DNA from: Fabrea salina
Taxonomy: Eukaryota; Ciliophora; Heterotrichea; Heterotrichida; Fabreidae
Assembly (NCBI GenBank): GCA_022984795.1
Contig: JALIHJ010000048.1
Span: forward strand, 144,948-208,947
Reading direction: 5' to 3'
DNA: 64,000 nt
Part shown: positions 20,240-64,000 of the stretch, one piece after another
Position numbering within the stretch: the stretch's first letter is position 1
How the letters are laid out: each line of letters starts with the position of its first letter
Made by a program: the position numbers and the translations under genes
Notes under the pieces: model-generated
What the model saw: the letters and a program-made list of their open reading frames with translations, nothing else
Databases searched by the model: none
What the model was told of the DNA's origin: nothing

Positions 20240-21739
20240 ATGGTTCTTGGAAATAGCTTAGAGGTAAAGTTTATCTAGGAATATGTAATTCAAAAGTATC
20301 TAGGAAGGGGAGGGTACTCTTACGTGTATCATGTGAAAAGTAGAGATAACAATAAGTCCTATGCCTTGAAAGTCATTGAAAAAGAACAGGTCACCTCCAA
20401 ACATACTAAGCTTCGTCTAAAAAACGAAATTGCACTTCAAAAGCAACTCAACCACCCTAACGTGCTGAAACTCCACCACCACTTTGAAGACAAGGAGCGG
20501 TTTTATCTGGTCCTGGAATACTGCTCTGGAGGAGAACTTTACTCTTATCTAAACACTCAAGGCAAACTCAGTGAGGCCCAAACCAAGGACTTCTTTGCCC
20601 AGATCGTAAAAGGGATTCAGTACCTGCACTCCATGGGAGTAATGCACCGAGACCTTAAACTAGGCAACATCCTTCTTTCCCAAGATCATTCTGTGCTCAA
20701 AATTGCTGACTTCGGCTTAGCAGTGGCACTTATCAAAGCTAGCGACTTGAGGGAAAGTCTCTGTGGCACTCCCAACTACTTAGCTCCGTAACCTTTACTC
20801 AGGGAAATAGTTTCAAAAAAGCCCTACGGACTCTCTGCAGACATCTGGTCTCTAGGGTGCATTTTGTACGCTTTTTTAAAAGGCAAGCCGCCTTTTGACT
20901 CTGGCAATGTTAAACAAACCCTTTCCAAAATCCAGCATTCCAACTACAGTGCTTCAGAACTCTCCAGCGAAGCCCAGAACTTAGTTGGTCTGCTCCTTTC
21001 CAAGAACCCCCAGTCAAGGCCTTCTCCCAAAAAAATCCTAGAGCACCCTTTTCTGAACGAGTCAAAAGCCTTTGACTGCTCCTACTACGAGTACAGAGAA
21101 CTCATGGGCTCAAAAATTAACCCTGCACGCAAAATTAAAACACTGAACTTGCCCTTGTCGAGTTGTTGCAGTCCCAGGTACTCAGTGGCTTCTTCACTAG
21201 ATAAAGACAACTACAAAGAAAGAATGGACAACTTGAGGAGGAGTCTGCAACACAGAAGGTTTTCTCCTCTGAACATAAGGGGACTCCAGGAGTTCAAGCA
21301 CATTTTGCAAAAAGGCGAACTTAAAATTAGCAAGGGTTGGGCCAAAGTCAAAATCGGCAGGAGGGAACTCAAGATATCCCAGGACGGCCAAGTAGCTTAC
21401 TACAAAGGAAAGAAGTACCTCTACTCCCAACTAACTTCTAACTCTGCCAAACTCTACCAGTACGCTAAAAGGTGCGTGGACGTAATTCGACAAAAAACCC
21501 CTGCACAAACTATAGAAGAAAAAGACGTTATTTTTTCCTTAATGTCCAACCTGCCTAGTCCCAACCTAGAGGCTTACTTTACAAACGGCAACCGAGCTAT
21601 TTACAACCCTTCACAAGACCATATCAGCTTAACCAAAGAAAACCAAACCCTCCAAATAGAAGTGAAGTCCCCAGGAGAACACTCCTACTTAGTGTCCCGG
21701 ATCCTCAAAGCCTACACTGCTTGCTTAAATAACTCTTAA
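20240..21739 (+). CDS. Polo-like kinase, PLK4/SAK-like
   Basis: Three exons (20240-20263, 20279-20787, 20803-21739) give 489 residues. The kinase domain spans ~8-262: YLGRGGYSYVYHV loop, YALKVIEKE lysine, HRDLKLGNILL, ADFGLA, and LCGTPNYLAPEIV in the activation segment. The following GLSADIWSLGCILYAFLKGKPPFD with VKQTL is close to PLK4. The C-terminal ~150 residues include KGWAKVKIGRRELKI and LEAYFTNGNRAIYNP, possibly divergent polo-box or cryptic polo-box strands. PLK4 controls centriole and basal-body duplication. A general PLK or NIMA-like assignment cannot be excluded. Confidence 0.85.
20264..20278 (+). other. 15-nt intron (phase 0)
   Basis: GTAAAGTTTATCTAG. Splicing joins MVLGNSLE to EYVIQKYLGRGG and so completes the kinase glycine loop. 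Confidence 0.88.
20788..20802 (+). other. 15-nt intron (phase 2)
   Basis: GTAACCTTTACTCAG. Splicing restores the APE motif of the kinase (LAP joined to EIVSKK). Confidence 0.95.
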
Positions 21740-22102: not shown

Positions 22103-22914
22103 TTACACCAGAAACACCACGTAGAACACAAAAAACATCACAAAGATCATGAAGACTTTGATTCCTAGGTTCCGGTTGCTAGTTACTGACTCGTGGTACT
22201 TCTCTATTTCCATTCTGCCTTTTTCTAAGTTGAGTAAACTCTGTTCAGTAGTTGAGTCGATTCTTTCGACCATGGCTTCTTGTTCGTGCACCATAAGTGC
22301 TAGTCTCTGCATCATTTGACTGAGGTCAGACATTTGGCGTTCTACTTGTTCTACGTCCCTCACGCGGGACTCCATTTGGTCTTCTTGGACCTGCACCTCG
22401 CTCTATTTATTGAGTACCTTTCTAGGAAACTGGGGACTTCTCGTGAACTCACTTCTAGTTGCGAAGTAAAGCCCAGTTGGGACTTTTTGGCTTCGTTCTG
22501 TCTGAGTTTTTGAGTGCGAGTTTGAAGTAGTGACTGGAAGTGTTTGGACAACTCCAAGAGTCTTTGGTTGAGTATTTCTTTGATGGTTTCTACGTGCTGT
22601 CCTTGCATTTGGTCTTTTTGGAGTTCTTCGAGTTTGATTTGGCAGACTTTAATCGAGTCCTGGATCTTTTCAGTAAGCGTTTGTATTTGCTGGTTTTGGT
22701 TGTTGAAGAGAGACGTTTGCTTTGTGAGACTTGAAAGCGTTTTGAGTTTGCGGTCAGCTTCTATGAGTTGGAAGTGCAGACTGCAGGTTTCTTTTAGGAA
22801 GTAAGACTGGGCTGTTGGAATGTCAGAAGTGTGGAGTCGCGTTTTGTAAGAAGCCTTAATTTGGGGTTTGAACTGCTGGATGTGTTTGTGCACTGTGGAA
22901 GTGATATCAGTCAT
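22103..22914 (-). CDS. STX5: Syntaxin 5 (Qa-SNARE, Golgi)
   Basis: Two exons (22914-22418, 22400-22103) give 264 residues if a 17-nt intron is removed. The N-terminal helical region covers ~1-160. The SNARE helix spans ~175-235 (QMMQRLALMVHEQEAMVERID; central-layer Gln in HEQEAM). VTSNRNLGIKVF then leads into a C-terminal membrane anchor that ends the protein. The SNARE-TM junction is very close to syntaxin 5/Sed5, which drives ER-Golgi and intra-Golgi fusion. The ATG lies inside the last codons of the upstream same-strand gene (8-nt overlap). Confidence 0.9.
22401..22417 (-). other. 17-nt intron (phase 2), with an alternative 15-nt acceptor
   Basis: On the coding strand this is GTACTCAATAAATAGAG. 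Only removal of 17 nt joins the two syntaxin halves in frame. Splicing to the TAG two bases earlier (15 nt) gives a truncated protein without SNARE motif or anchor. Confidence 0.75.
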
Positions 22915-23986: not shown

Positions 23987-23990
23987 ATTA

Positions 23991-25176: not shown

Positions 25177-25560
25177 ATGGTAAGGTACAGGCCTGACCCT
25201 CGTGGAATGCACCAAGCAGAACTATACAGGTGGCAAGCTTCTCTAGGACCCTTTAGAAGAATCCACTTTACTTATTCTAAGTACAGGTTTATGGACTGGG
25301 CAGTTAAGCACCCAAGGGTCTGCATGGGGTTCTGCCTCACAGGGATTGCCCTGGCATTGCTTTCAGTGGAGGGGTACCGGGTGTGTTCAGGAACTTCTCC
25401 AAGAGTGCCAACGCTTTTCAATCCAGTAGAAAGGCCTTTCCAGTACTTTGAGTGGGTAAGGGACACAACTAAGTCCAGAGGGGAGTGGAACAACAACTTC
25501 ATGTGCTGGTCAAGCAACCCTGACTGCGGCAAAGACTTTAAGCCGCGCTACTTTAACTAA
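25177..25560 (+). CDS. Small single-pass membrane protein, possibly mitochondrial
   Basis: The protein has 127 residues. A basic, aromatic N-terminus (MVRYRPDPRGMHQAELYRW) precedes one membrane segment at ~47-63 (CMGFCLTGIALALLSVEG). The C-terminal half is polar with FNPVERPFQYFEWVRD and a terminal MCWSSNPDCGKDF pair of cysteines. Size and layout resemble accessory subunits of ciliate respiratory complexes; this is inference. The stop is 3 nt from the convergent stop of the next gene. Confidence 0.65.
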   Translation: MVRYRPDPRGMHQAELYRWQASLGPFRRIHFTYSKYRFMDWAVKHPRVCMGFCLTGIALALLSVEGYRVCSGTSPRVPTLFNPVERPFQYFEWVRDTTKSRGEWNNNFMCWSSNPDCGKDFKPRYFN

Positions 25561-31457: not shown

Positions 31458-31461
31458 TATA

Positions 31462-32331: not shown

Positions 32332-33516
32332 TCAGTCTGAAAATAAAACTTGGAACTCAGCAGAAAGATCTCCAGGTTGCTTCCACACCTTTGTAGAGTA
32401 CACTAGTTCCACTTTTCCAAAGCGGCTACTGTAAGCAATTCCAAACCCCAGTGAGCCCCTAAGTCGCTCTCCCAGAATTAAGTTGCCGTAGGCAAAGGGC
32501 ACCAAACCTAAAGCGTTTAAAGTTGCATTCTTGTATAAGTGAACTTTACCTTCTAGGGTGCAGAAGTAGTTGTTTCCTAAGTTGTCTCCGTCTAGTCCGT
32601 AACTTCCCTTTAAGTTTGCTTCACTAGGCACTCTGCTGCCTATAGACTTAAACCCTTTTTGGTTGTTGTAAAAGTACCTGTCGTTTACAGCCAATTTAGA
32701 AAACTTCCAAGGAACTACCAAGCCTGCGTCTAGCCTTGATTCAAGTACTACGTTTTCCCACAACTCACTGAGTTTTCTGACTTGGAGTTCTGTTTTGTGG
32801 AACCTTACATCCGAACTAAGTGCAAGTTCGTTTGAAAACGAAACTGGTCCCCACCAAAAAGTGTGCTTTAGGTAGTTCTTAGCAGTCTCTAGCAAAGCTT
32901 CCTGGATGAGTTCTGAGGAAGAGTAGTTGGTTTCTAGTTTGTTGCTTCTAAACTTTCTTCCGAACTCAAAGGTATTGTTGCTGTTTTTGTGCTTCAAAAG
33001 AACTACTTCAGACAGGGAACTCTCTCTTAAGTTTTGGTCAAGTTCGCAGTGACCTACTCCAAAAGAAAAAAGCCCCTCCACAGGTCCTAGTGTTTTTTCG
33101 TGGTGTTGCAAACTCAGTCCCCAAAGTGCAGGGTTGTGCCTCAGAGTCAGCATCAAAGAAGTAACATCTGCCCTCTCACGAATGTTACGCATTAAAAATA
33201 ATAGCCCTAAAGACCCTCCCTGGAGTCCGTAGGTGGTGTTAGCGCTAATATTCCACCACCCCAGATCCTTAAGCCTGAAGTACACTAAAGCAGAGTTGAG
33301 CCCTTCCCCCGGCAAAACTTCAGCTGTGCAGCTTTTAAAGGCTCCCAGTGTTTTTAGTTTGTCCATGCACCTAGCTAAGTTAGAGTCTAGTTCCCCAACA
33401 GTTCTGGAGTACCTGACTGATTCTAAGTACTTCTCAAGAACTTCAGAAGAAACAAGAGTTTCGCTGAATTCCAGGTCTACTTTGTTTAGACGGTTTTTGG
33501 CAAACCCAGAGTCCAT
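32332..33516 (-). CDS. SAM50: SAM50/Tob55 mitochondrial outer-membrane beta-barrel assembly protein
   Basis: The protein has 394 residues. An N-terminal POTRA-like domain (~14-100: SSEVLEKYLESVRYSRTVGEL, KLKTLGAFKSCTAEVLPG) precedes a beta-barrel of alternating strands. Omp85-type signatures are NDRYFYNNQKGFKSIGSR (the DRF/RGF region) and the final hairpins LGFGIAYSSRFGKVELVYST with a C-terminal aromatic-rich strand (AEFQVLFSD). SAM50 inserts beta-barrel proteins into the mitochondrial outer membrane. One POTRA domain and no signal peptide fit the mitochondrial member. Confidence 0.85.
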   Translation of the reverse strand: MDSGFAKNRLNKVDLEFSETLVSSEVLEKYLESVRYSRTVGELDSNLARCMDKLKTLGAFKSCTAEVLPGEGLNSALVYFRLKDLGWWNISANTTYGLQGGSLGLLFLMRNIRERADVTSLMLTLRHNPALWGLSLQHHEKTLGPVEGLFSFGVGHCELDQNLRESSLSEVVLLKHKNSNNTFEFGRKFRSNKLETNYSSSELIQEALLETAKNYLKHTFWWGPVSFSNELALSSDVRFHKTELQVRKLSELWENVVLESRLDAGLVVPWKFSKLAVNDRYFYNNQKGFKSIGSRVPSEANLKGSYGLDGDNLGNNYFCTLEGKVHLYKNATLNALGLVPFAYGNLILGERLRGSLGFGIAYSSRFGKVELVYSTKVWKQPGDLSAEFQVLFSD

Positions 33517-33529
33517 AATAAGTGATTAA

Positions 33530-34303
33530 TTAGTTAATGGCAAGCATTGGTTCTGTTTGAGTGCTGGACTTGGATAAAAGCACTGGAATCAAAGCCAGGA
33601 GTCCCAAAAGTCCAAGTAAAAAAGTGGCTTGGCCTGAAAGTCCCAATTCTGTTACTTCAGACAAAGCTATGCCTGTGTTGATGTAAATGCAGTTTACAGG
33701 AATCAAGCCTACAAAAGTTGCTGCAGCAAAGTGCTTCAGGGGAATTCCTATCACAGGACTTACTAAGTTAGTGATCCAGTTAGGAACCAAAGGAACCACT
33801 CTCAAAAACAAAAGGTAGTAAAACAAGTTTTTCTTGTTGGATGAAACTAAGTTGTTGAACTTCCGAACTGCTTTAGGAAAGAAAGCAAGGATTACTCCTC
33901 TGCCTAAAGTATGCGAAAGCAAGTAACACACTGTAGACCCCACAGTAGAGCAGACTGTTACAAGAGAAATCGCCACTTTGAACTCAAAAACAGCCCCTGA
34001 CAAGAAGCAAAGAACTATTGGTCCTGGAATTCCAAAACTTTGCAGCAACAAAAACACAAAGCAAAATGCTGAAACTACGTAGTAGTAAGAGTTTTTGGTG
34101 TAGTTCTGAACAACTTGGCTCATTTCAAACAGGTCTTTAGAACTCTTGGGAACCCTAAGGAGTTGAGTCTTTTCTTGGTGACTTAAAGAAGGTGCATTGT
34201 ACAGCAGTATACACAAACTTAATAAACTAACTCCAAAAACCACTCCCAGTATAACTTTGTTCTCTCCCAAGCGGTTCTTTTTCTTAAGGACTTCTAGTTC
34301 CAT
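33530..34303 (-). CDS. TMEM41/VTT-domain membrane protein
   Basis: The protein has 257 residues. After one membrane segment the VTT (DedA/SNARE-associated Golgi) domain follows: FGIPGPIVLCFLSGAVFEF, STVGSTVCYLLSHTLGRG, then FLRVVPLVPNWITNLVSPVIGIPL, the re-entrant-loop signature of TMEM41 and VMP1. TMEM41B and VMP1 are ER phospholipid scramblases used in autophagy and lipid supply. Its ATG directly abuts the TAA of the upstream same-strand gene (no base between). Confidence 0.9.
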   Translation of the reverse strand: MELEVLKKKNRLGENKVILGVVFGVSLLSLCILLYNAPSLSHQEKTQLLRVPKSSKDLFEMSQVVQNYTKNSYYYVVSAFCFVFLLLQSFGIPGPIVLCFLSGAVFEFKVAISLVTVCSTVGSTVCYLLSHTLGRGVILAFFPKAVRKFNNLVSSNKKNLFYYLLFLRVVPLVPNWITNLVSPVIGIPLKHFAAATFVGLIPVNCIYINTGIALSEVTELGLSGQATFLLGLLGLLALIPVLLSKSSTQTEPMLAIN

Positions 34304-37300
34304 TTAAAATGATTTATTGGACTCGTAAAACGAGTTAGGTTTCAAAGAACACACATTCTCGAAAGAACAATTCTGGGGTGAAGGAGTCAATGGGGGTTCA
34401 GCTTCTTGAATGTTAATGCTGTACACATCCTCTACTTTCTTTTTCTTTCTGCAGTTTCTAATTGAGTTCCACACACTTTTAACCAACAAGTAGTAACTCC
34501 ACAACAACAGTCCACAAACCAAGCCTATTTGGGCCCACTGAACAACTGCTCTCCAAAAGTCACTTAAGTCCAAAAGGTAAAAACCATTCAAAACAAAACA
34601 AGTTGTAACTACTAACTCAAAAGCTATGTTGATAGTGTTCTCTGAAGCAACTTTGTATGGCTTAAGCACCCACAAATACAGTGTGCAAACAAAAGAGTGC
34701 AAAGCATTTAAAATCACCTGAACAAAAGGACTCGACTGCAAACAGTATAACACCAGCACGTAGATCCACCTTCTGAGACAGAAGTAGGGGTAGTAAAGCA
34801 AGTGAAAAACACTCTCAGGTCTAAACTCTTCAAACAACGTCCCCCAGAGCTTACAAAACTCTTCTTCTCCTGCTGCTATCTTAGAAAAGTTGTTTTTGAT
34901 GAACACTGTCAGTTTGTAACTTGAGTAAAACCCACCAAACACCACAAGCGAAGAAAGGTAACTACAAACAGTGCCTTCTAAAGTATGAAAGTCCAAAAAA
35001 GCCAACTGGACAACTCCCGCTAGTTGGAGCATCAAAAAAACTTCTAACCAAAGTCTTGCTAAGCACTGCCACTTGTAGAGTGACAACACCTTTCCACACT
35101 TCTGAGTTAATGGCTTCCACCTACAAACTAGTTTTAAAACCCACAACAAAGGCCACAGTCCCAGGACCCCAAAGCAAATAGCTAAATCTTTTCCAGAGTT
35201 CACCAAAAAGTGTTCTGAGGAGTACTCTATTTCTTGACTCCAGTAGTTCTGGATTCTCTTAGGCAACTTTTCTGACTTTTTGTACAAAAACTTAAAAGGG
35301 TTAGGAATGAAGTCCATGGCTTCGAACGACTTGTAAAAAAGCTGGACGATAGGAGGAAAGTCTATGTTCATTAGAGGAATGTAAGCCAGTATCTGGGCAG
35401 TGTTTAAGTAAGTCCACAAACTCCCTGAGTCCTGCAAAAACAAGTAAACTGAAGCTGTGCTTAACACGAAAGAAGTCCCTGCGTACTTCACTACTTCTTC
35501 CACTACAGTTGGCTCTTCTTCTCTTAGTTCCAGTTCTAAAACTGTGTTGTTTAGGTAAACCCTGCTCTGGTTATATATAGCAGGTCTTGAGAAGTTTATG
35601 ACTAAAAAGGAGTTTGGAGTTATTTTGGAAGGAGCGTACTTTGTCCTTAAGCAGTATTTTTCAGAACTTCTGGCTTCAACACTGTACTTTACTCTGTAGT
35701 TAGTGGAGCTCTTAACAGAAAGTTCCAGTGACTGGGTGTTTAAAGTTTCCAGGGCTTCTGTAAAGTTAAGCAAAACACTGTTTTGGCTATCTAAAGTGCC
35801 AGTCACTCCAGTTGCACTTACGCATTCCCCGTTGTACTTCTGGTACTTTTCCGGACAAAAACACTCATAATTCTTCAAAACAAGGAATTCATTGCACTCT
35901 AGGCACTTTAAGTCCTCATTGCACATCAAACAACCCCAAGGACACTCTACACACTCTCTGCCTAAACTTAAGTACCCAGGAGCGCAACTTACACAACTTG
36001 ATCCTTCACTTTTCCAGCCCTTTTTGCAGAAACACTTTGTTCCTTCTAACTCCATTGTATCTCCACACTCAGTGCAAGTGCTAGAGTTACCTTCACAATC
36101 TATACAAGGAGACTGGCAGGGCTGGCAAGTGTCGTGTGTTTCGAAGTATCCCTTTTTGCATTCTCCACAACTTCCTTTTTGGAGACTTCTTCCTGTTTGG
36201 CATTCTAAACATTCACTTTCTGTACACCTGATACAATAAGTAGAGCAATCAGAGCACACAAGTGGCGAAGTTTGGGCAGCGTACTTACTTTCTGGACACT
36301 CACAGTAGCCTTGCCAAGAAGGAACTACTGAACTCTGGATGCAAGTTGTGCAGTCTTCTGGGTTGCTTCCAGTGCAAGTTGCACAAGAACTATGGCAGTC
36401 TTCGCAAACAAGGGGCAACTTTGAAACAATGTATTGAGAAGCGCCGCAAGAACATGGACCAGGAACATGAAGAGGAGTTACAGAAGTGTCTGAACAAGCA
36501 AGGCACTCTGACTTACTTACACAAGAAGAGCAAGCAGGGTCACAAGCTTCACAAGTTAAAGGATCTGTTGTAGAAGCAAAAAATCCCTCCTTACAAACAC
36601 AAGTCCCGGAGTTTACAATAGAATTGGAAGCAGAGCATGTTAAGCAATCTGTAGGGCCACTGCAAGTACTGCAGTCTTGGTAGCATGGCAAGCACTGGCC
36701 CCCTTGAGTATCTTCATAAAATCCAGCCGGACAAGAAAAAGTGCAGTAATGAGTGTAAGGGTCTGCATAGTACCCTGGATCACAGTTGATGCACTCAAAA
36801 GCATCTTCGCAGTAGTAACAGTTGGAAATGCAAGTTAAACCCCAGTTACAAGATAAAGAAGCTTGGTCAAACGGGTGTGGAGTGCAATATGTTTGCTTGA
36901 GGTCCAAACAGTCCGAAGGGGTGCTTCCTTTGCAAGAGAAAGAGCAACTGGAGTCACACTTTAAGCAGTCCTGAGGGTCATTATTTACACAAGAAAAAGG
37001 CCCACAGTCACAGGCAGAGCTGCAGTCTGATGTAAAATAAGGATCTAGACACTCTGGAAGGCATTCAGTGTCTGGGCAGTAAGTGCAGCCCCCTATGCAC
37101 CCAGTGTTGCTCAAACCAGCTCCTAGGTAGTCCGAAACTGTCATTGAAGTGTCGTAGATGACCATTGAGTAAATAAAGCCCTCATAACAAAAACTATAGT
37201 CTCCTTTTGCACCTACAAGTGACTCATTCAAACTTGAGTCCATAAAAGCACCTGAAAGCAAAGCACTTGAAGCTGGAGAGTCGTTTATGCTAACCTGGGC

Positions 37301-37780
37301 ATAGTTGGAAAATCCATCAAAATAAGTATAACAGTACACAAACTTCCAAGTACCTAAATACTACTTACTGTCTATTCCAAGGCTGTAAGTCCCCACTCCT
37401 TCTACTATGAAGTCAAGCTGAGACCCATTCACAGAAAAAACCACTAAATTGAGTCCAGCAGTGCTAGGGTTGAAACGGCTGAAAAGGGTTCCTGAACTCT
37501 TTGGTAATATCCACATTGCAATGCTGAATAGTGAGTTCAGCGTAAAACTAGTTTGCGAAAGAGCGTTTTCGGGAAACTTTAGGAAAGAAACAGGAGTTAA
37601 GTAAATTCCTCTGTCAGTAAAAAGAACATCCTGAGACTCTTCTTCAAGGGAAGTTCCTGAAACTAGGTGGTTAGTTCCTACAGAGTCTCTGACTACCTGG
37701 CCTGAATGCTGTGCAAACTTGTGCTCTGAAACTAGTCCGGCTAAACTCTTTACTGCTAAAAGTAAACTAAGTAAAAGCAT
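34304..37780 (-). CDS. Large receptor-like protein: LamG-like domain, EGF/furin-like Cys repeats, polytopic membrane region
   Basis: Two exons (37780-37369, 37353-34304) give 1153 residues. Signal peptide MLLLSLLLAVKSLAGLV; a beta-rich, LamG/concanavalin-like domain ~40-205; then about ten Cys-rich repeats (~205-600) of furin/EGF type such as CPAGFYEDTQGGQCLPC and CSTCSGPTDCLTC. A beta-rich stretch ~600-700 precedes about seven membrane segments between ~850 and 1110. The tail is short, with NIQEAEPPLTPSP. Ciliates carry large families of such proteins, presumed surface receptors or adhesion proteins; ligand and signalling role are unknown. Both ends abut neighbouring genes without a spacer base. 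Confidence 0.85.
37354..37368 (-). other. 15-nt intron (phase 1)
   Basis: Coding strand GTAAGTAGTATTTAG. Removal joins ...YSLGIDS to TWKFVYCY within the LamG-like domain; without it the frame stops at the internal TAG. Confidence 0.93.
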
Positions 37781-38008
37781 TTAACTAGTTAAACAAAAGT
37801 CAGACACTTCATAAAAAATAAAGTCATCTTCGTACTGCACAGCAAGCATATCATAGTTGCCACTTAGGTCAACTGAGTCACTAGGCCCAAGAACCAAGCA
37901 AGTGGACTCCCTACCTTCTTTGTTTCCTTTTGCGCACTTCCCAGAAAACTCAATATTTTCCCAGTTGAATTCTTCCTGCAGCTTCTTGAAAAGCCCTTCT
38001 TGGTTCAT
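37781..38008 (-). CDS. Small acidic protein, function unknown
   Basis: The protein has 75 residues starting MNQEGLFKKLQEEF, acidic, with a likely beta-rich C-terminal half (DSVDLSGNYDMLAVQYEDDFIFYEV). The TAA stop is immediately followed by the ATG of the next gene on the same strand. The start is 14 nt from the divergent start of the TBC gene and is preceded by AATAA. No family is recognised; the tight fit between two gene borders supports it. Confidence 0.6.
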   Translation of the reverse strand: MNQEGLFKKLQEEFNWENIEFSGKCAKGNKEGRESTCLVLGPSDSVDLSGNYDMLAVQYEDDFIFYEVSDFCLTS

Positions 38009-38022
38009 TTATTAAATTAAAT

Positions 38023-39123
38023 ATGAAGGAAGTGAATCCTTTTCTTGCTTGGTTTCATCAAGGAAGCAACCTTAAGCAACTTGAACTAAACCCCAAAGCC
38101 AAAAAGATCCTTGACCTTGTAGATAAAAACCAAATCAACCTTAGTAAGTTGCGCAAACTCAGCCAGTCAGGAAACCCAGACGAACCTGCAGGAGTAAGGT
38201 CTTTGGTTTGGAAAGTCCTCTTAGGATACTTGTCCGTTTGCCCCAAAGAGTGGAAAACTAGTCTCAAGCAACACCGCTCCAACTACCAACTTTATTTAAA
38301 CGAACTAATCACTCCTAACGACGAACTTTGGACTCACATCGAAAAAGACATAAGACGCACCAGAAGGGACATGCACTTCTTTTGGAAACCCAAAGACACA
38401 ACTCTGACTTACCAAGACGTGACTCAAGGCAACGTGCCTCCCAGAGTGCTTTCTAAGCCCTTCATGACAGGACTTGACGAGGTCCTAGGTCGCTCAGACG
38501 ATCCATACCTAGTAGCCATTATGAACAACCCTGACATTGAAAAACACGCTGATGTAGTTGCTCGGATCCTTTTCATCTACGCCAAACTAAACAAAGACGT
38601 TTCATACGTCCAGGGTATGAACGAACTATTGGCCCCTATATACTACTTGTTCAGTATGGACACCCACCCTGACTTCAAAGACCATGTGGAAGCTGACGCC
38701 TTTTTTTGCTTCTGCAGAGTTATGTCTGCTCTAAGGGACTTTTACGTAGTAAGTCTTGACTACTCCGAGAACGGAATATGCACTCAACTGCAAACCCACT
38801 TTGAGTTGATTAAACTGCACGACTACAAACTCTTTCTGAAAATGAAGGCACTCAAAGTAAAGCCCTTTTACTACTCAGCAAAGTGGTTGTTGCTTCTTTT
38901 TTCGCAGGAACTAAGTATTCCTGAAGTATTTAGACTCTGGGACCTGTTCTTTGCCCACTCAAAAATCTGCAGAATTCTGCACTATTTTTGTTTGGCTGTT
39001 GTAATTAGAAACAAACCCAGGATTTTAAAAGGCAGTTTAAACGAAGCTTTGCTTGCTTTGCAGCACCCTAACTTAGACAACCTGCAAGACCTGATCCACC
39101 GTGCTCTTTGTCTGTCAAAGTAA
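38023..39123 (+). CDS. TBC-domain Rab GTPase-activating protein (TBC1D13-like)
   Basis: The protein has 366 residues. The TBC domain covers ~50-345: GVRSLVWKVLLGYL, then IEKDIRRTRRDMHFF with the arginine finger (the pattern is I-x-x-D-x-x-R-T), then YVQGMNELLAPIYYLF with the glutamine finger, and FRLWDLFFAH near the end. The long insertion between Arg and Gln fingers and the overall length fit TBC1D13. It should stimulate GTP hydrolysis on a Rab involved in membrane traffic. Confidence 0.93.
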   Translation: MKEVNPFLAWFHQGSNLKQLELNPKAKKILDLVDKNQINLSKLRKLSQSGNPDEPAGVRSLVWKVLLGYLSVCPKEWKTSLKQHRSNYQLYLNELITPNDELWTHIEKDIRRTRRDMHFFWKPKDTTLTYQDVTQGNVPPRVLSKPFMTGLDEVLGRSDDPYLVAIMNNPDIEKHADVVARILFIYAKLNKDVSYVQGMNELLAPIYYLFSMDTHPDFKDHVEADAFFCFCRVMSALRDFYVVSLDYSENGICTQLQTHFELIKLHDYKLFLKMKALKVKPFYYSAKWLLLLFSQELSIPEVFRLWDLFFAHSKICRILHYFCLAVVIRNKPRILKGSLNEALLALQHPNLDNLQDLIHRALCLSK

Positions 39124-41872: not shown

Positions 41873-43387
41873 ATGGAACAAGAACAAGCCCTTCTGGTCA
41901 ACATTGGAGAAAGGACTTACAGAAAGTACCCAGTCAACATTCCGAAACCCTTGAACGTCCACTTTCCCTCAGAGAAACTAGCTCTCCTCGAAGAAGACGA
42001 CGGAGACAGTGGGGACGAAATTGTTAATGTCGACATGCAGAACTTAGAAGACGTATCGGAACTCCCCAGTGAACTAATCTCCAAAGAAGAGGACAAACCA
42101 GAAACTGGTGTTTTGGAAACTATTTACTTCGAGCAGTCAATGAACTCCTACACACTCTACACAAAACTAAACAACAAAAAGCACTTTAATTCAGTCTGCA
42201 ACTCCCAAAAACAACTTGAAAAGGACACAGGTGCAGTTATGAAACTCACTCCTCGCAACTCCTCCCTCGAAATCCGAGCAAACAATCCTGAGTCAGTAAT
42301 CAAAGTCCACACTCTTATTTTGGAAAGCATAAACAAAGCACTTGAGTTACGACCTACTGACTACCAAGTACTCAACCAGCATAACCGTAAACTCCTAGCT
42401 TCAATGAAACCTAGTGACAAAACATTTCAAGACCTGTCTGCTCCGGAGCCCAAAGAAACCCTTGACCCCTACCCTGCACTTAAAATTAACCAGGACAAAA
42501 AAAGAAATGGCTACTTCACTACACTCAGCAACTTCCCTCAGCAGTGCATAGACCTTCTTTTGGGCAACAAAGCTCAAAAGCTCAAAAAACTCAAAAGCCA
42601 ACTTAAGGGTTCCGTTGAGTACTTTGTGAACAAAAACAAAAGGACCTTCGAGATCCTTGGCTTCACTGAAGAAGACGTGAAGAACGGCTATGCTGCCTTT
42701 GTAAGACTTCTAGGAACTTCCCCCAAAGCCCTGGAAGCTTTTAAGAACTCAACTCCGAAACAAGAATACACTCACTTTTTGGCTGTAGATCTGCAGAACC
42801 ATATAGGGGTATCCTCGCTCCAAGAGGAGATTTTTTGTTGCAAAATCAAAAACTTGAAGCCAGAAATGCTGGTCCCCCCCACTCAGTTCCACTTGACCCT
42901 TGGAATGCTGAATGTTGAGTCTGAAGAACAGGTTATTTCCTTACTTGAGTCCTGCAAAGAACAAGTAGTTAAACTTACCCAGGCACAGCCACTCCAAGTC
43001 ACCTTTGACAAAATAGGTCACTTCGGAAAACCCAACGCCACCAATGTTATATCGCTTGAACTCAAGAACGACTCTCAACTTCAAAAACTCAGAGAAATTA
43101 ACTGCTTGCTTCTTAAAACTCTTTACGAGAACTCAATAATACCTGAATCAGAACTTAAAACCCAAAAAATAAACCTCGACTCCCAAAAGTTCTACTTGCC
43201 TTACCACCTCACACTTGCCAAAACCTCAAAAGCCAAAACCAAACTCAAACTAGACATCACAGACCTACTCAATCGGAAAAAAGAAGTCAACTTGGAAACA
43301 AGGGTTGACTCTTTAAGTTTACTTTCAAGAACTAAGCCCTCTCCCCAAGACCCCTACCCAGTAGTTTACTCCTTAAAGTTTGCTTAA
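41873..43387 (+). CDS. KH plus 2H-phosphoesterase protein (ASCC1/AKAP7-like)
   Basis: The protein has 504 residues. The C-terminal half carries the two HxT motifs of the 2H fold, FHLTLGML near 340 and YHLTLAKT near 445, separated by VTFDKIGHFGK and a helix pair, as in the AKAP7 NLS domain of ASCC1. The preceding ~85-165 segment (AVMKLTPRNSSLEIRANNPE) and possibly a second region ~235-285 are KH-like. ASCC1 works with the ASCC complex in alkylation repair and ribosome quality control. RNA 2',3'-cyclic phosphate-type chemistry is expected for 2H enzymes. The stop overlaps that of the convergent LSM7 gene. Confidence 0.82.
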   Translation: MEQEQALLVNIGERTYRKYPVNIPKPLNVHFPSEKLALLEEDDGDSGDEIVNVDMQNLEDVSELPSELISKEEDKPETGVLETIYFEQSMNSYTLYTKLNNKKHFNSVCNSQKQLEKDTGAVMKLTPRNSSLEIRANNPESVIKVHTLILESINKALELRPTDYQVLNQHNRKLLASMKPSDKTFQDLSAPEPKETLDPYPALKINQDKKRNGYFTTLSNFPQQCIDLLLGNKAQKLKKLKSQLKGSVEYFVNKNKRTFEILGFTEEDVKNGYAAFVRLLGTSPKALEAFKNSTPKQEYTHFLAVDLQNHIGVSSLQEEIFCCKIKNLKPEMLVPPTQFHLTLGMLNVESEEQVISLLESCKEQVVKLTQAQPLQVTFDKIGHFGKPNATNVISLELKNDSQLQKLREINCLLLKTLYENSIIPESELKTQKINLDSQKFYLPYHLTLAKTSKAKTKLKLDITDLLNRKKEVNLETRVDSLSLLSRTKPSPQDPYPVVYSLKFA

Positions 43388-53795: not shown

Positions 53796-56700
53796 ATGGA
53801 TCAGGGTATTCGTGAACCGCTTCTAAATCAAGCCAAAGAGCATATTGTTGACACTCTCAACTCCTTCAACACACTTCAAGTTCAGAATGAAGGCGAAAGA
53901 ACTTGGAAAGAAGGCATCACAGAAGCCATGGCAAAAGTCCTTGAAAACTGTCCGGAAGTAATACCTACCCCCTTTTCAGGTTCTTGCTTCCAAATTACCA
54001 AGGACATGTCCAAGTTCGTCTTGGGTAACTTCGAAGGACGTTTGGCAGTCATGGATATAAAGTCCCGGAAAGTCATTAAGGACCTGTCAGTCACTAGCCA
54101 AATTCTAACCATAGCCCTTTCTGAAGACGACAGGTTTGCCTACCTAGGAGGAGGGGACAACTTAATTAGGTGCTACGACCTAGAGACTTTTGAGTTAGTT
54201 ACAAGTTTAGAAGGCCATGAAAAAGAAGTGAACTGGGTCATTTGCAAAGACCACCTTTTGTACTCAGTTTCAGAAGACGGAACCGCCAGAAAATGGAATC
54301 TCCAGTCCAACGAGTCGAGAATTCTATTGACCCACGAAGATATTATTAAAAACGTTTCTTTGCGTGATGATGGCAAGTATCTAGGGTTTGGGTGCTCAGA
54401 TGGACAAGTGCTTATTTACAACCTCGAATCAGAGGAAGTAGTCAATCTCGAAGAGAACTCAAACAATAAAGCAGTTTGGTGCGTCAAGTTCTCTCCAGAC
54501 AACAAGTACGTAGGTGCATGTGGTTACTCTAGAGAAATCAAGTTGTGGGACTTTGAAACTCTAAGTCTGTGCAAAACTTTTGCTGGGCACGAAGTAGCTG
54601 TTAAGTGGTTTGAGTTCACCAAAGACTGCACCAAACTAGTTTCAGGAGGCAGGGATAATGCTGTGAAGGTGTGGTCTCTCAACAAAGACAGAAAAGAAAA
54701 GACCCTTGAAAAGCACTCTAACTGGGTCCAGCAGATAATATTCAACAAAACACAAACTTACTTCTTCAGTCTAAGTCAGGACAATAGAATCATCAAGTGG
54801 AAAATGCCTGACTTAGAAGATCAAGTTTTGTTGAAGGAGCACACTGACTACATTTATGGAATTCATTATGTGAAATCCAAAAACTTTTTAGTCTCCAACT
54901 CCGATGACGGGAAGGTAATTCTCTGGAACGCACAAACTCTGGATAAAGTAGAAGAACTTGTGCATGACGGAGGAATATACGCCATGGCTGTAACTCCTGA
55001 TGAAAACTACGTGATAACTTGTCCTCAGGCAAACTAGTCAAGTGGAGTCTCAGTTCCTTGAAAAAAGTCCAAGAAAAAGTTTCAGAGGGCGGAATTGTTA
55101 AGTCCATACTCATCAGCAGTACTGGAAAGTACTTCATGACAGGAGATATTGCTTACAGAGTTACTATGTGGGACCTGGAAAGCTTTGAAGTCCTAAAAAT
55201 CTTCAGAGATCACACAGGAACTGTTTGGTCACTAGCAGCCACTTCAGATGAGAAGCTCTTGTTTTCCGGAGGAAACGACAATATCATAAGGGTGTATGAT
55301 ATTCAGCAAGAAAAAAAAGTCGCAGACCTGTATGGCCACCAAAACAGAGTAAGTGTTTTAAAAGTCTCTCCACACAACAACTTACTAATTTCAGGGTCTT
55401 GGGACCGTGAAATAAGGCTTTGGGATATTGGATCTAGTGAATGCATTAAGGTACTCAAGCACCATGCCGGCTCTGTTAATTCGTTTTACTTCACTTTAGA
55501 CCCTTCGCCTTACATGCTTTCAGGTTCAGATGACAACAGCATAACCTTCTGGAACCAAAATGACTTTACTCTTTGCTTCAGCATTCAAATTAAGGATCGT
55601 TGCAAAACTATTTGTTTGTTTGATGACGAAAACTACATCGCAATCAACGACGGTTACGACATACTGGTGCTCAAAAATCCCCTGAAAAACCAAGAATTCG
55701 CAATTTACGGAAACCCAGGAAGCGAACAAGTGTACTTGGACTACCTGAGGTCAGTGATTACACACGAGGAACAAGACCCTGAGCATAACCCAAACTACGA
55801 CAAATGGTTCATAAGTCCTTACCACTTCAATACTGCCCACTTCTTTTCTTACCTCAACAAACAAACACTCATCAAAAAGGCACTTAAAGAAGGGGTTCCA
55901 TTCATCAACTCCCCCACTGGAGTCTCTCCTTTCGTGCTTGCAGAAAAAAGAGGTTTTGACGAAATCATTTATATGCTCATCAAAGAGCTCATTAAGAGAG
56001 GAGCTGATAACTACGCAAGTTTCTACGTCCTAGAAGACATGCTAGCAGACCTCAACTTAAAAGGCTTCAAAGTACTTCCTGATCTTTATGACTCTTTGTT
56101 CATTCATTTCAAGCAAAAAAAGCAGTCCTACTGCTCTTCAGACGCAAATCTACCTCTTTATCGTACTTCAGGCTTCATTAGGCCAGAAAGTAGTGACTTT
56201 TTGAACGCTAACCACCACAAGAATGAGGACAAGCCTGTGGACTACTACGGACTAGGAATTAGACTGGCACTAGAGCCTGGTTCCCAAAGCAGCATTGAGC
56301 TCTTAGAAAGCATCAAGGATTCTCCCAACCCTGAAATCTTTAGGTCTGAGTTCATGAAGTACTTACTTGACTACAAGTGGAACCAAGTGAAGAGTGTCCA
56401 AATCACCCAAGGAGCCTGTTACTGGTTTTACTTGGTACTCCTGTGCTTGTTCGTTGTTTTCGAGAATCAGTACGGCTTTATGCTGATGCTAGCCTTTGTG
56501 GCAAACGTAGCCTTGCTTGTTTACGAGGTTTACCAAATGTTTGTGATGGGAGCTTCCTACTGGACAGACTCTATCAACTACATAGACTTGCTCAGGTCAC
56601 TTTCTTGCTTCTTTTACGTGTTCATGTTTGTGTTTGGAGTGCTTGTAGACTATGAGTACTCTATACTCACTGCACTGATGTTTATTTCGTTTTTGAGGGG

Positions 56701-57286
56701 AATCACTTACTTCAGGCTTTTCGAAAACACTAGGTACATGATCAACTTGTTAGCTGAGGTCATCAAAGACATGCAGTCGTTTTTGATTCTGTTGTTTTAC
56801 TCCACCGTTGCCTTCGGAATGATTTTCAAGACTCTGAACCCGGACACCGACACTTTCGCAACTTTCTTGAGCAAGTCTTACCTTCTAAACTTAGGTGAGT
56901 TTGACACAGACAACCTTTTGACTCTAGATTGGTTGTTCTTTTTCTTAGCTACAGTGATCAACCCCTTGATCATGCTCAACTTGCTCATTTCCATCATGGG
57001 AGACACCTTCGCTAGAGTCCAAGAAGGAATAGAAGTAGCTGACCGAAAGGAACTAACTGAAATGATTCTAGAAGTTGAGTACCTGATGTTTTGGAAAAGA
57101 GACTCCAACAACAAAGAGTACCTTCACCTTTGCGAGGAAGATCTTCGTTTAAACGGAGGCTCAAAGACTCTAGAGTCTAGAATCAAGGAATTGAAGTCCA
57201 GGCTGAGTTCCATAGACTCCTCAATTGAAGAAGTCAAGAAGAAGTCCAACCAAGAAATACTTAGCTTAATCAAAAAAGAGGATTAA
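53796..57286 (+). CDS. WD40-repeat/TRP-like ion channel fusion, with one frame break at about 55017-55037
   Basis: About 1164 residues. Residues ~60-640 are WD40 blades (at least twelve; LVSGGRDNAVKVWSLNKD, LISGSWDREIRLWDI). Ankyrin-like helices follow (~690-770: TALKEGVPF, SPFVLAEKRGFDEIIYMLIKE-type). A six-segment channel domain starts near residue 860: segments from WFYLVLLCLFVVFE to the pore-helix/S6 region FFLATVINPLIMLNLLISIMGDTF, followed by a TRP-like helix and a terminal coiled coil. The reading frame shifts within one blade: ...NYVIT continues as LSSGKLVKWSL in another frame. One missing base would repair it; a 17-nt intron is the alternative. Confidence 0.85.
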
Positions 57287-58250
57287 ATGGAGTCTATAGT
57301 CAGAAAGTAATTCAGCTAGAGGTAATACTCAGTTTATGAAGCTTTCTTTCATAGGAGGTCACACTAATGGTGTTTGGTCAATGCTATTTCTAGTAAACTC
57401 GGAATCTTCAGGAAGTATAAATTTATTTATTCATTTGAGCTAGTTTAAGCTGCCTAGGCCTCTACTAGGTAGGTTTTCTTGTGTTTTTTCATTGGTTTCT
57501 GGTCTTCTGTTCTTTTTCGTGTTTCTTCTTGGTTGAGGGTGTTGTTGTTTCGTTTTTTTGTTCTGTTTCTTGTGGTTTTTCTAGCTGATGAGTTCCAGAG
57601 TTTAAAGAAGAACACTTCTCAAGAAACCATAACTCTCAAGCACTACGGTCGTCCATTCTGCTTAATGATTAATGATTAAAGATGATTAGAGTGTTTTGTC
57701 TGTTTATGTTTTGGAAGTAATGCTTTACTCAACTGACTTGTTTTCTAGTAGAAACTCAGCTAGGTTTGGTGCCTAAATACTTGAGTGTCTAGTGATTGAC
57801 TATTTAAAAGACCTCACTAGGTGTTGTTTCTTTAGTCACTTTTTACAAGCACTGAGTTTCTGTTTGTATAAAGAACTAGTCTTACTCAGCCTAGAATTAA
57901 ATAGACAAGTATTCAGAGTTTGATTGGTCTGTTTGAGTACTTTGCATTCCTTAGTTATAGACACCTGCTAATTCAACACTACTGCTTTAAGACTAGCAAT
58001 GAGTTGTTATTCTGGTGTTTGTTTATGAACTGTCTTTTTGAGTCTTGGTTGTTGTTCTGGCTTTACACTCCATGTCAGTACGCTGCCACTAGGTCTCTAA
58101 CCCCTAGTAAGTTCTTTCAACTAATAAGAACTTTAGAGTTCAGTCTAGGTAGAAATATCCTAAGCAACATTGTTGTTTCCCACTGTTCCAATACTCTAGT
58201 GCTTAGTTGTGTATTATAGTTAGTTTCCTTTACCTGTCCATGCTTTTTGT
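57287..58250. other. Subtelomeric interval without a supported gene
   Basis: AT-rich and lacking the tight gene packing seen to the left. A minus-strand stretch near 57480-57600 encodes a Lys/Glu/Thr-rich string in one frame, with stops on both sides; it may be a relic or chance. Confidence 0.45.
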
Positions 58251-58270
58251 TTGTCTTTTGTTCTTTGTGA

Positions 58271-58589
58271 AGAAGTTCAGTGGTTTTCAAACCTTGTTAC
58301 TTAACTCAATAGCCCTTCACACAAACTAGTCATGACATCAAGTTCCTCTACTAAGTAACTAAGCATACACTCTAGAAAAGGTCTAAGCATTGCAAATTCC
58401 ATCAAAATCATTTCTTATTCCTACTAACACCTTAGGAATAACTACTTTAATGAATTATTTAGCCAATACAGAGAAGTGAACTATTCAGTCTTACTAGATC
58501 TGTTTACTTTTGAGTGTTGTCGCAATGCTAAGTCGTATTGAGATCACTCATTCTTAGAGTTGTCTTCATCTCTTGCTTTGTTTGGACTT
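58271..58589. repeat. Subtelomeric direct repeat, copy 1
   Basis: Diverged match to 59872-60137 in the same orientation. Shared blocks include CATTTCTTATT after CCATCAAA..., ACAGAGAAGT, AGAGTTGTCTTC and TCTTGCTTTGTTTG. Insertions and deletions are common, so the duplication is old. Confidence 0.75.
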
Positions 58590-59119
58590 CTCAAAGCACT
58601 AGGCATCAACAACAATCTTTTCTTTGCATGGCATTGTGATTGTAGTTTCAATATACACTGTTCCTTCGTTGTAAGTAGAGTTTTAGAGTTGGACAGAAGA
58701 ATCCCTTCTTGTAGCTTCTTGTCAATAGTAGGCAAGGCAGCCTCAATGATAAATTTGAGTGTTGATTTAGGGCCTTTGATATCGATGCTAGTGTTTAGGG
58801 TGTTTGCACTACCTTTATTGACTCTACTTTCAAGTCGTCTAGAACCCAGTCCTTTACAATTGCTGTGGTGTTGAACTCTATTGAGTTTTGGAAAACAGCA
58901 CAGTGTTGACTCACTATTCAAGTCAGTAGTTTCTTAATGAGTCCTTTGTCCTACAAAGCACTGGATATTGAGTTAGGTGTCTTTTCCTTACTAACAAACA
59001 TTCCAGTGTGTTTTTTCCCAGGGAGTAGTTTAACTAGAAGGAATCATTTGTTCAGTAATGTTACAGGTGATTATGTCTATTTGTAAGCTCAGTATAACCT
59101 GTGTTCAAGGTATAGCAGT

Positions 59120-59720
59120 AAGTATGATCTGGATTCGTTTCTCTTTACTTTCAAAGTCTGGCAAGGAGGGTTGTAGTCGGGGTCGTTGGTGTCTATGAAT
59201 ATTTTCAGAGCTTAGATTTCAGTGTAGTTGTCATAAGTAAGTGAGTAGTCAATGGGTATTGGGTAGTTGTCGAGATTGAAGACAAAGACTCTGGAGTGAC
59301 CCCTGAATTGACTTGTTTATTTCGTGTTCTATGTCTCCCTTGCTGCTGTGATCTAGTTAGAAATGTCACCTATCCAACTGTGCTCAAACTTAATGTCTTC
59401 AATGGTCACTACTGGTTTTGCGCTCCTTCCAGATATCTCCATTTGTACAGTTAGTTTGTGCAATCCTTCCAAACTCTTCTACTCGGAAGCTGTGTGGTAC
59501 TTGGAGTCAGTTTAGCACACTCCTTCAATTTGAGAATGTACTTGTTAGTGTGCTCAACAAGACGCAGAGTCACTGACACTGAAGTTTATTCGTAAAGCAC
59601 TATGTAGTACACTTTGATTCCGTACCAGTCCTTCCCTATTCCTTTGCTGTTTAAGTACCGGTTCCATTCCTAAGTTTGAGCTCATTGCCTAGATCCACAA
59701 CCAGTTTCATTTCGTTACCA
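59120..59720 (-). pseudogene. Decayed protein-coding sequence
   Basis: Read on the minus strand, stretches of good protein character are broken by stops and frame changes. Bases 59302-59120 give HSRVFVFNLDNYPIPIDYSL..., then a TAA (59212-59214), then ALKIFIDTNDPDYNPP in the same frame. Bases ~59455-59340 give KLTVQMEISGRSAKPVVTIED in another frame. Bases ~59690-59600 give KGIGKDWYGIKVYYIVLYE and NEMKLVVDLGNELKLRN in different frames. The family is not recognised. No start or complete domain remains. Confidence 0.5.
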
Positions 59721-59871
59721 ATTTTCAAGTGCTTGTTATATTGTTTTTCATTCTGTGTTCAGGGTGCTTTTCTTGTCCTTCACTATTTACTTCACTTGAT
59801 ACTCTGGACTCCTTTCTTTCCAGTGTGCATGTTAGTTACTTTCCTCTACTTCTGTTTGACCCAGAAATTAT

Positions 59872-60137
59872 GAAGAAGTTCCCAGTGGTTTCAAACCCTG
59901 CTACTTAATCAGCAACCTATTTACAGAGTGGTGCCTTTCCTCTACTGCACTTTAAAAAGCAAAGTCTAAGTATTGCAAAGTCCATCAAATCATTTCTTAT
60001 TTTGACTACTTTAAGAATTATTCAACCTACACAGAGAAGTAACTATTCGTCTTCTCGGATCAATCTGTTGTCTAAGTTCTAAGTTCTGTTAGGTGAGACT
60101 CAGAGTTGTCTTCGTTGATTTCTTGCTTTGTTTGTAC
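59872..60137. repeat. Subtelomeric direct repeat, copy 2
   Basis: Second copy of the diverged repeat at 58271-58589. It ends about 280 bp before the start of the P-loop ATPase gene. The two copies bracket ~1.3 kb that includes the decayed coding sequence. Confidence 0.75.
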
Positions 60138-60415
60138 TGTGCATGAACATTGTGATGACTACTTAGTATGCAGATGCTCTAATTACTTATTCACAGCTAT
60201 GTTCTCTTCAGACTTCTCTCTGATGGGTGTCCACTCATAACCTTCCAAGTTTACTCACTCCCTCCAGCCTTCTATGTCCTAGACTTTAACTTAGTAAACT
60301 CACATTGATAATTAGAATCCCGCAGACTGTGACTCCAAGATCATCTTTCAGACATCACCCTAACCCATTGATTAATTCAACCAAGTCCTAGTTGCTATAA
60401 CCCAGTCATAATTCA

Positions 60416-61872
60416 ATGGCTAATAAAATGTTCAGTCGAGTCGTCCGCAACTTCCACAAGCTCAGAGTTCCCCAGGGATACTCCGGAGACTTGAGACTTT
60501 ACAAGTTCAGATTCGAAAGGTTCACCCAGGGAGAGAATATCGCTGAAATAGGCGGAAAGTCCTTATTCGCAAATACTGACGGCATTGTGTGGAAAAAGCT
60601 CAAGCAAGACAACCTCACTGTTGAGGAAGGCACAGAAATCTACGAAGTCGTCAACTTCCCTCCTTGGCTAAGAATGATTCCTCCGAATGCACTTATATCC
60701 TTCCTCGCACTCTTTGTGGCCTACCTAGGCTACATGAACCAAAGGAAATTCAACGAAGAACAACTCCAAAACAATAAGATAGAGATCGGGCTTAAAGACC
60801 CCCAATTCAGCGTCCAAAAAATCAAAGAGACCTTGACTCAGCCCAAGCTAGCACCTAGAGTTAAAGGGACTTTGATTGAAAATCCTGAACTCACTCAGGA
60901 ATGGATCAACTACCTTGAAAAGCCCATTGAGAGAGGAGTGGACGTGGTCTACGGACCCAAAGGCATAGGCAAGTCTACCTTTATGCGAAGACTTTGCCAT
61001 GTCATCAGCAACCCTCAAGTGCTCAAGGAGTACTCAGACACTGAGACCCAGTTCGTTTCTGTGTACGTAGACTTGAGAGAAAAAAAGGAGAATCTATGGC
61101 TGAACCTTTACTCAGTTTTGGGAGCCGGGGCTACTCAATAAATAACAAAGTTATCCTCGAAGACTGTCTGAAAGACTTGATTGAGGAAGGAAAAAAGCCA
61201 GTCCTCATTTTTGACAACGTGCAAGACATCCTACAAGGCGACTACAAATCTTCAGAAGGGGCTTCCTTCATCAAAGACCTGATACTCGATTTCGCTGGAG
61301 AAGAGCTAGCCAAAGTGATTCTAGTCAGCAGTGATCAACACCTTCCAGGCCGAATTGGATCGCTCAGCATAATTGATGAAGAATTCGATGTTGATGCTTT
61401 TCAGTTCAGCTACCCAGAAGGAGAAGAAGTCACCAATTGGATGAAGCAAGTAGCAGAAATGGACAGCAGGTCAGTGACAGATGAAGACCTGCAGTTGTAC
61501 CTGAAGTACCATGGCTCACTAAGAGGGTTCAAGAAATTCTGCTCTAAGTACAAAGACATCAGTTTGAAGGAGTACTTAAAAGAAGGCATCAAAAAACGCT
61601 TAAACACACTGAGGACTCAAATTAAGATTTCAAAAACTGACGAAGCTGAACTAAAAGAAGTGCTCAAGCCTCTTTTCCAAGACTCAGTCATGGAATTTCC
61701 TGGTGAAATGGAAGGGTTGTTCTTAAGACTGATTGAGAAGAATTTCATCAGAAGATTCGATGAAGATTACGTCACATTCAACTCAAGAGTCTCTGAATCT
61801 GTTTTGAGAGTTTACTTTGAAGAGCATGGTGACTCGGAGTTCTTAAAAGAATTAATTAACCAACCAAGATAA
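60416..61872 (+). CDS. Membrane-anchored P-loop ATPase, probably mitochondrial, with a frame break
   Basis: About 485 residues in two frames: 60416-61141 and a continuation open across ~61060-61872. The N-terminus is basic (MFSRVVRNFHKLRV). A membrane segment (NALISFLALFVAYLGYM) lies near residue 103. The Walker A motif is VVYGPKGIGKSTFMRRL, Walker B KPVLIFDNVQD, and an arginine-containing sensor-like region follows, then a helical/winged C-terminus. The layout fits STAND/AAA-type ATPases. The frame break lies between an A7 run (61080-61086) and the stop at 61139; a one-base loss, or a 17-nt GTAC...AGAG intron at 61063-61079, would explain it. It is the only clear gene in the terminal 6.7 kb. 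Confidence 0.75.
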
Positions 61873-63622: not shown

Positions 63623-63682
63623 GGTGTTAGGGTGTTAGGGTAAGTACTAGGGTGAAATTAGGGTCGTTTAGGGTGTTACTGT
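63623..63682 (+). repeat. Degenerate telomere-like junction
   Basis: Scattered copies and part-copies of the telomere unit (GGTGTTAGGGTG, CTAGGGTG, TTAGGGTC, TTTAGGGTG) are mixed with other bases between unique DNA and the perfect array. Confidence 0.85.
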
Positions 63683-64000
63683 TTTAGGGTGTTAGGGTGT
63701 TAGGGTGTTAGGGTGTTAGGGTGTTAGGGTGTTAGGGTGTTAGGGTGTTAGGGTGTTAGGGTGTTAGGGTGTTAGGGTGTTAGGGTGTTAGGGTGTTAGG
63801 GTGTTGGGTGTTAGGGTGTTAGGGTGTTAGGGTGTTAGGGTGTTAGGGTGTTAGGGTGTTAGGGTGTTAGGGTGTTAGGGTGTTAGGGTGTTAGGGTGTT
63901 AGGGTGTTAGGGTGTTAGGGTGTTAGGGTGTTAGGGTGTTAGGGTGTTAGGGTGTTAGGGTGTTAGGGTGTTAGGGTGTTAGGGTGTTAGGGTGTTAGGG
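63683..64000 (+). repeat. Telomere, about 40 units of TTAGGGTG
   Basis: Uniform 8-bp tandem array running to the window end, G-rich strand 5'-3' outward, as expected at a right chromosome end. One unit near 63804 lacks the A (TTGGGTG). The complement is a permutation of CCCTAACA, the heterotrich ciliate repeat. Confidence 0.97.

Follow-up and report, generated by a model that had tools for sequence, protein, structure and literature searches.

Zero-spacer TAAATG junctions in a row of touching genes of the ciliate Fabrea salina: a start context probably reused as the stop codon of the preceding gene

We analyzed 64,000 nucleotides (nt) of contig JALIHJ010000048.1 of the heterotrich ciliate Fabrea salina (NCBI GenBank assembly GCA_022984795.1, positions 144,948 to 208,947), hereafter called the window, in which three predicted genes follow each other on the minus strand with no base between them. 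In their reading direction these are an open reading frame (ORF) of 75 amino acids (aa; 38008..37781), a large gene (37780..34304), and a VTT-domain gene (34303..33530). An earlier sequence-only reading had noticed TAAATG on the coding strand at both borders, and it is indeed present at 37783-37778 and 34306-34301; the spacer is zero at both junctions, which also bears out the remark that the arrangement leaves no intergenic room for untranslated regions (UTRs). The features of the row are as follows.

37781..38008, minus strand: acidic ORF, 75 aa, stop TAA at 37783-37781 (open frame and coding score)
37778..37783, minus strand: junction 1, TAA then ATG, 0-nt spacer (read from the sequence)
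34304..37780, minus strand: cysteine-rich membrane protein gene, 1153 aa (ORF after splicing)
37354..37368, minus strand: 15-nt intron GTAAGTAGTATTTAG, A at position 10 (frame, paralogue and consensus of 48 introns of the contig)
34301..34306, minus strand: junction 2, TAA then ATG, 0-nt spacer (read from the sequence)
33530..34303, minus strand: VTT-domain membrane protein gene, 257 aa (PF09335, E = 1.2e-18)

The junctions were compared with 235 gene models from a sample of 288,947 bases (about 1.6% of the genome), made up of the whole contig that ends with the window (C46, 167 models) and a stretch designated C9 (68 models). The models were made by a codon-usage caller with 15-nt introns, a simple script working on DNA; the first caller forbids same-strand overlaps and internal stops, and a start refinement that permits overlaps moved 16 of the 235 starts. 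Among 202 starts, positions -4 to -1 were each A or T in 89-91%, and the commonest triplet before ATG was TAA (55 of the 202; 15 of 51 within the window). TAA is the commonest stop codon as well. Because the neighbour cannot supply a same-strand stop upstream of a divergent start, such starts served as a control. TAA preceded 28 of 102 divergent starts, as compared with 187 of all 6004 ATGs (3.1%) and 31 of 1126 out-of-frame ATGs in genes. Likewise, TAAATG is read at the start of the 75-aa ORF itself, even though the gene upstream of it is divergent and lies at a distance of 14 nt. The column consensus of 92 divergent starts was ATTTAATTAAAA-ATGG, and these 92 starts, taken from the same gene calls, were used to train a start-context matrix. 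Mean scores on this matrix were 3.0 for six zero-gap starts, 2.5 for the divergent starts (the training set) and -2.8 for internal ATGs. The start at junction 2 scored 5.33, on a level with the highest of the 2519 internal ATGs, and that at junction 1 scored 0.83, which is above 93.8% of them yet the lowest among the six zero-gap starts. Separately, a perfect 14-base-pair (bp) palindrome, TTTAACTAGTTAAA, lies at 37780-37793, where it takes in the stop TAA of junction 1 together with the first base of the ATG that follows.

The starts predicted for two of the three genes are backed by paralogues. The VTT-domain protein, which we take to be TMEM41/VMP1-like, is 40-51% identical to three paralogues, L002, L003 and L004, and the N-terminus ME(L/I) is common to all four; the genome holds six VTT matches, two weak ones (23-24% identity) having been left out of the examination. 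None of the three paralogous genes is placed as in the window: L002 is divergent from its neighbour at a distance of 3 nt, L003 is also divergent, with overlapping called ends and the caller's start 15 nt upstream of the aligned Met, and L004 lies 7 nt downstream of another, different gene. The large gene has a paralogue, L032, with a similar N-terminus, located 376 nt from a different upstream gene. Thus, as far as the genome of F. salina itself is concerned, paralogues of two of the three genes (VTT and large gene) have other neighbours.

The large gene is open only when its 15-nt intron is spliced out, as the unspliced frame runs into TAG at 37361-37363. This intron was absent from the sequence-only account; a 15-nt intron candidate is found in L032 at the same aligned position and phase. 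The label LamG/EGF-like given to the protein in that account survives only in its first half and weakly, with a match to PF13385 Laminin_G_3 (E = 0.025, below the cut-off) in the first 294 aa of the spliced protein; no EGF family matched. The C-terminal part is weakly TRP-channel-like (PF06011, E = 2.6e-4, below the cut-off). The family of the large gene has 62 matches in its own genome, including the gene itself, several of which are pieces of one gene.

These paralogues bear on whether the TAA at a junction terminates translation at all. A gap of zero puts both genes in a shared frame, so that read-through of TAA, as with the ambiguous stops of the Condylostoma type, would yield fusion proteins, and context-dependent stops are described for some heterotrich species (PMC4967479). 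Stentor and Fabrea, however, use a canonical code (PMC10553269). In addition, the VTT paralogues begin at the same Met with no upstream part, same-strand gaps of 0-30 show no bias to multiples of 3 (24, 24 and 22), and uninterrupted ORFs in the window reach 1074 aa. The gene models cannot reveal in-frame stops, the caller forbidding internal ones; in a search reading through stops, 59 of the 62 matches of the large-gene family had no in-frame stop, in contrast to the frequent internal stops that read-through would lead one to expect. We therefore regard read-through as highly improbable, the least probable of the explanations weighed here.

The status of the 75-aa ORF is relevant to junction 1. 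It could be argued that this ORF is not a gene, and that junction 1 is a coincidence, an open frame happening to stop at the TAA in the start context of the large gene: the ORF has no Pfam match and no second copy or paralogue within its own genome, and among 136 nested shadow ORFs 60-100 aa long, 2.2% attain its coding score of 19.7. Nevertheless, that score spread over 75 codons is close to the per-codon median of the gene models (0.24), and the start context is strong (4.15), which makes the non-gene alternative rather unlikely. As this ORF lacks relatives, for all its typical coding score, we place less confidence in junction 1 than in junction 2.

The zero spacers were then viewed against gene spacing in the whole sample, where 92.5% of C46 and 92.7% of the C9 stretch lie within gene spans. 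After start refinement, the 125 same-strand gaps had a median of 23, a set that includes wrong pairs from genes split by frame changes (22103/22360, 53796/55136 and 60416/61096, giving overlaps of -16 and -46), from a shadow ORF at 25272-25502 displacing 25177-25560, and one 3129-nt gap. Convergent gaps (n = 54) had a median of 5.5; 16 of the 54 pairs overlap, and seven share four bases for both stops (TTAA in five, TTAG in two). Within the window, TTAA common to both stops of convergent genes is seen at 21736-21739 and 43384-43387. Divergent gaps (n = 54) had a median of 30.5 and a minimum of 4, apart from two negative values (-152 and -167) that probably reflect wrong starts and were excluded from the gap comparison. 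Divergent starts only 4-6 bp apart include those of a cwf18 gene (4 bp), of a NuA4-subunit gene (5 bp), and of the pair formed by an F-actin capping protein beta gene and a PRP21/SF3a-like gene (6 bp). In the capping protein and the NuA4 subunit the domain begins at residue 6, which supports the starts of these two genes.

Zero gaps occurred in 6 of the 125 same-strand pairs before start refinement and in 7 after it, making up 7 of the 22 gaps of 0-9. This exceeds a flat spread (p = 0.004). When start context was allowed for, using the frequency of any stop triplet at each offset upstream of divergent starts, the expected share was 0.21 (p = 0.17), so that zero gaps show no clear excess over the number that start context leads one to expect. 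Some zero-gap partners come from unrelated families (HAUS2 and a protein kinase; START and a weakly Myosin_TH1-like protein). Others, the RING/B-box pairs at C46 9338-14543, are tandem duplicates related to each other. Two other zero-gap starts encode MGC and MGN N-termini, presumably acylation signals.

The excess over a flat spread, and the two consecutive zero spacers at which a ribosome would finish exactly at the next AUG, are what one would expect of a polycistronic unit, in which a single mRNA would carry the genes and ribosomes would terminate and reinitiate at TAAATG to translate each following one. The sequence-only reading had drawn this analogy with an operon, and it found no support in the sample. 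Neighbouring genes share a strand in 125 of 233 cases, which is no excess (p = 0.29). Were every gene to carry 5' and 3' space of its own, the gaps between same-strand genes would be expected to equal the average of convergent and divergent ones; their median of 23 is to be compared with 18.5, the mean of the convergent and divergent values (bootstrap interval of the difference -8 to 11), and same-strand gaps are hence not compressed. Opposite-strand neighbours, which are unable to form operons, are equally tight or, at their 3' ends, tighter. Some zero-gap partners, such as HAUS2 and the protein kinase, are unrelated by family, though the RING/B-box duplicates are related, and the paralogues described above have other neighbours. 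Overlaps of -4 and -1 are typical of bacterial coupled genes; in the present sample they numbered 0 and 1 of 125, respectively. We consider a polycistronic unit unlikely, and the row of touching genes is in itself no evidence of an operon. Translational coupling of the bacterial type was likewise left unsupported by this DNA-level test, both overlaps being nearly absent.

A polycistronic precursor might also be cut into single mRNAs by spliced-leader trans-splicing, which would yield them with no need for intergenic promoters. The lack of excess of same-strand neighbours argues against this as well. Upstream of the starts, AG was present at only 1-5% per position in -7 to -1, as compared with a mean of 6.4% further up, a weak test because the depletion comes partly from A/T richness and distant acceptors are possible. 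Moreover, the 15 nt preceding the start lack AG in 52% of the 202 cases, an observation made with no search for the spliced leader itself. Trans-splicing seems to us very improbable.

In our view, the data are best explained if the three genes are separate and belong to a heterotrich macronuclear genome of extreme compactness, each of them probably being transcribed into its own mRNA with very short ends that overlap the neighbours, and we consider this reading likely. The mRNA of the upstream gene would stop where the next gene begins or slightly within it, and that of the downstream gene would start at, or shortly before, the end of the preceding gene. As space between genes was lost, the TAA of a start context would have become the stop codon of the preceding gene. 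The TAA at the junctions is probably, then, the normal start context of the downstream gene, reused as the upstream stop. While the sequence, the spacing and the start context are observed directly, the RNA ends, the one-gene mRNAs and this evolutionary route are what we infer from them. Overlapping single-gene mRNAs were among the options named in the sequence-only reading, and of these options they appear to fit best.

The regions around closely spaced starts gave further indications. The upstream coding sequence (CDS) was richer in AT at its end when the next start was no more than 5 nt away (0.719 versus 0.61-0.63, p = 0.003; 13 unique ends versus 127, the reference excluding 64 ends of convergent pairs with gaps below 10 and 28 same-strand ends with gaps of 6-14). 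Signals belonging to a close neighbour, either to its start or to its end, would thus appear to extend into coding sequence. Across 219 upstream regions, each 50 nt long, TAATTA occurred 29 times as against 14.9 (standard deviation 3.5) in a dinucleotide shuffle, about twofold, with 17 of the 29 copies finishing within 10 nt of the ATG. In the same promoter-motif search of these 219 regions, the 8-mer TTAATTAA was not clearly enriched (4 versus 2.5). Tentatively, and in view of some divergent start codons only 4-8 bp apart, TAAATGG near the start might be at once a core initiator, a translation start context and, at zero gaps, the previous stop, with promoters of about 10 bp or situated inside the neighbouring CDS and with nearly leaderless mRNAs; we see this as a possibility rather than an expectation.

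Several points weigh against the explanation by compaction and start context. The column composition at -3 to -1 alone predicts 0.19 for TAA, so the 28 of 102 found are a modest excess (p = 0.026); the TAA preference is thus mostly general A/T richness, with a smaller part for TAA itself. A consecutive pair of zero gaps is expected 0.2 times in 68 triples, and one was found, or two if a refined start holds, the possible second run (C46 91641-93785) resting on that uncertain start. A high AT content is likewise seen at convergent ends with gaps below 10 (0.691) and is missing at ends with same-strand gaps of 6-14 (0.612), so that AT-rich CDS ends may stem from general end signals rather than from a promoter. 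The 75-aa ORF, having no relative, could be non-coding. Finally, our picture of the UTRs and transcript units is drawn from DNA and from related ciliates, and the gene calls are those of a simple DNA-based script.

Next to the row lie further closely spaced genes. Two 4-nt spacers, which the sequence-only reading had put beside the junctions, are both real.

38009..38022: divergent spacer between the 75-aa ORF and the TBC gene, 14 nt
38023..39123, plus strand: RabGAP-TBC gene, divergent neighbour (PF00566, E = 3.5e-35)
33517..33529, minus strand: spacer to the following gene, 13 nt
32332..33516, minus strand: next gene in the row, 394 aa, weakly Omp85-like (PF01103, E = 1.5e-4, below the cut-off)
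31458..31461, plus strand: same-strand spacer, 4 nt
23987..23990, minus strand: same-strand spacer, 4 nt

No match was obtained in tRNA and Rfam scans of the window. Three genes, at 22103-22914, 53796-57286 and 60416-61872, named by eye as syntaxin-like, WD40/channel and AAA-like, seem to shift frame by -1/+2, and no 15-nt intron explains the shift. The 13-mer TACTCAATAAATA is located near the frame change in two of the three, in different phases. The frame changes may be due to assembly deletions or to programmed frameshifting. Approximately 3.1 kilobases (kb) at 57287-60415 have no called gene above the threshold, unlike most of the contig. A 300-nt direct repeat (176-475 and 3667-3966; 83% identical, with identical 15-nt introns) represents adjoining duplicated genes.

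The genome comprises 18,328,466 bases in 103 contigs, and the window, which is roughly 58% AT, is the last 64 kb of the 208,947-base contig. The contig end carries 46.2 copies of GGTGTTAG at 63623-64000, and CTAACACC repeats are present at the other end. With such telomere-type repeats at both ends, C46 looks like a whole chromosome. Both repeats are permutations of CCCTAACA or its complement, that is, of the Blepharisma repeat. On C46, 48 introns of 15 nt were called, 47 of them with A at position 10; three calls of 16 nt looked spurious and were dropped. The 15-nt introns and the CCCTAACA-type repeat are features of heterotrich ciliates. All three standard stops are used by the C46 gene models (TAA 125, TAG 31 and TGA 10, of 166).

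Taken together, zero-spacer junctions are the outcome expected of compaction and a TAA-rich start context, and heterotrich compactness has already been published. A weak, mostly title-level literature search, which did not include the Fabrea and Stentor genome papers, found no description of TAAATG junctions in ciliates. The F. salina sequence shows how far a eukaryotic nuclear genome can be packed, with some divergent starts a few bp apart, convergent genes sharing stop bases and same-strand genes sharing one TAA, and it opens the question of the minimal size of a eukaryotic promoter, 5' UTR and 3' end. The most novel point is how little space the starts of transcription and translation may need in this genome.

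Among known systems, bacterial operons have touching stop and start codons alike, and differ in that the present genome shows no -4 or -1 peaks, no strand bias, and opposite-strand genes that are tight too. The late-promoter element of poxviruses is also TAAATG, TAAAT being fused to the start codon; this viral likeness is one of sequence only. In Blepharisma, most introns are 15 or 16 nt long, intergenic regions and UTRs are short, and the telomere repeats represent permutations of CCCTAACA (PMC9942806), although Blepharisma reads UGA as tryptophan and has 66% AT, whereas the genome examined here uses all three stops. For heterotrichs, 3' UTR medians of 21-23 nt are reported, and some poly(A) tails of Condylostoma start directly after the stop, especially UAA (PMC4967479). 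Very compact genomes are shared with the microsporidia Encephalitozoon cuniculi and Antonospora locustae, in whose extracellular stage transcripts often begin in the upstream gene (E. cuniculi) or finish in the downstream gene (A. locustae; PMC3629993). Their overlapping expression is known from RNA and they are intracellular parasites; the overlap proposed for F. salina, with its heterotrich-ciliate features, comes from DNA alone. As in other compacted eukaryotes, genes in F. salina touch or overlap in several orientations, with 16 of 54 convergent pairs overlapping, divergent distances down to 4, and zero gaps in 7 of 125 same-strand pairs.

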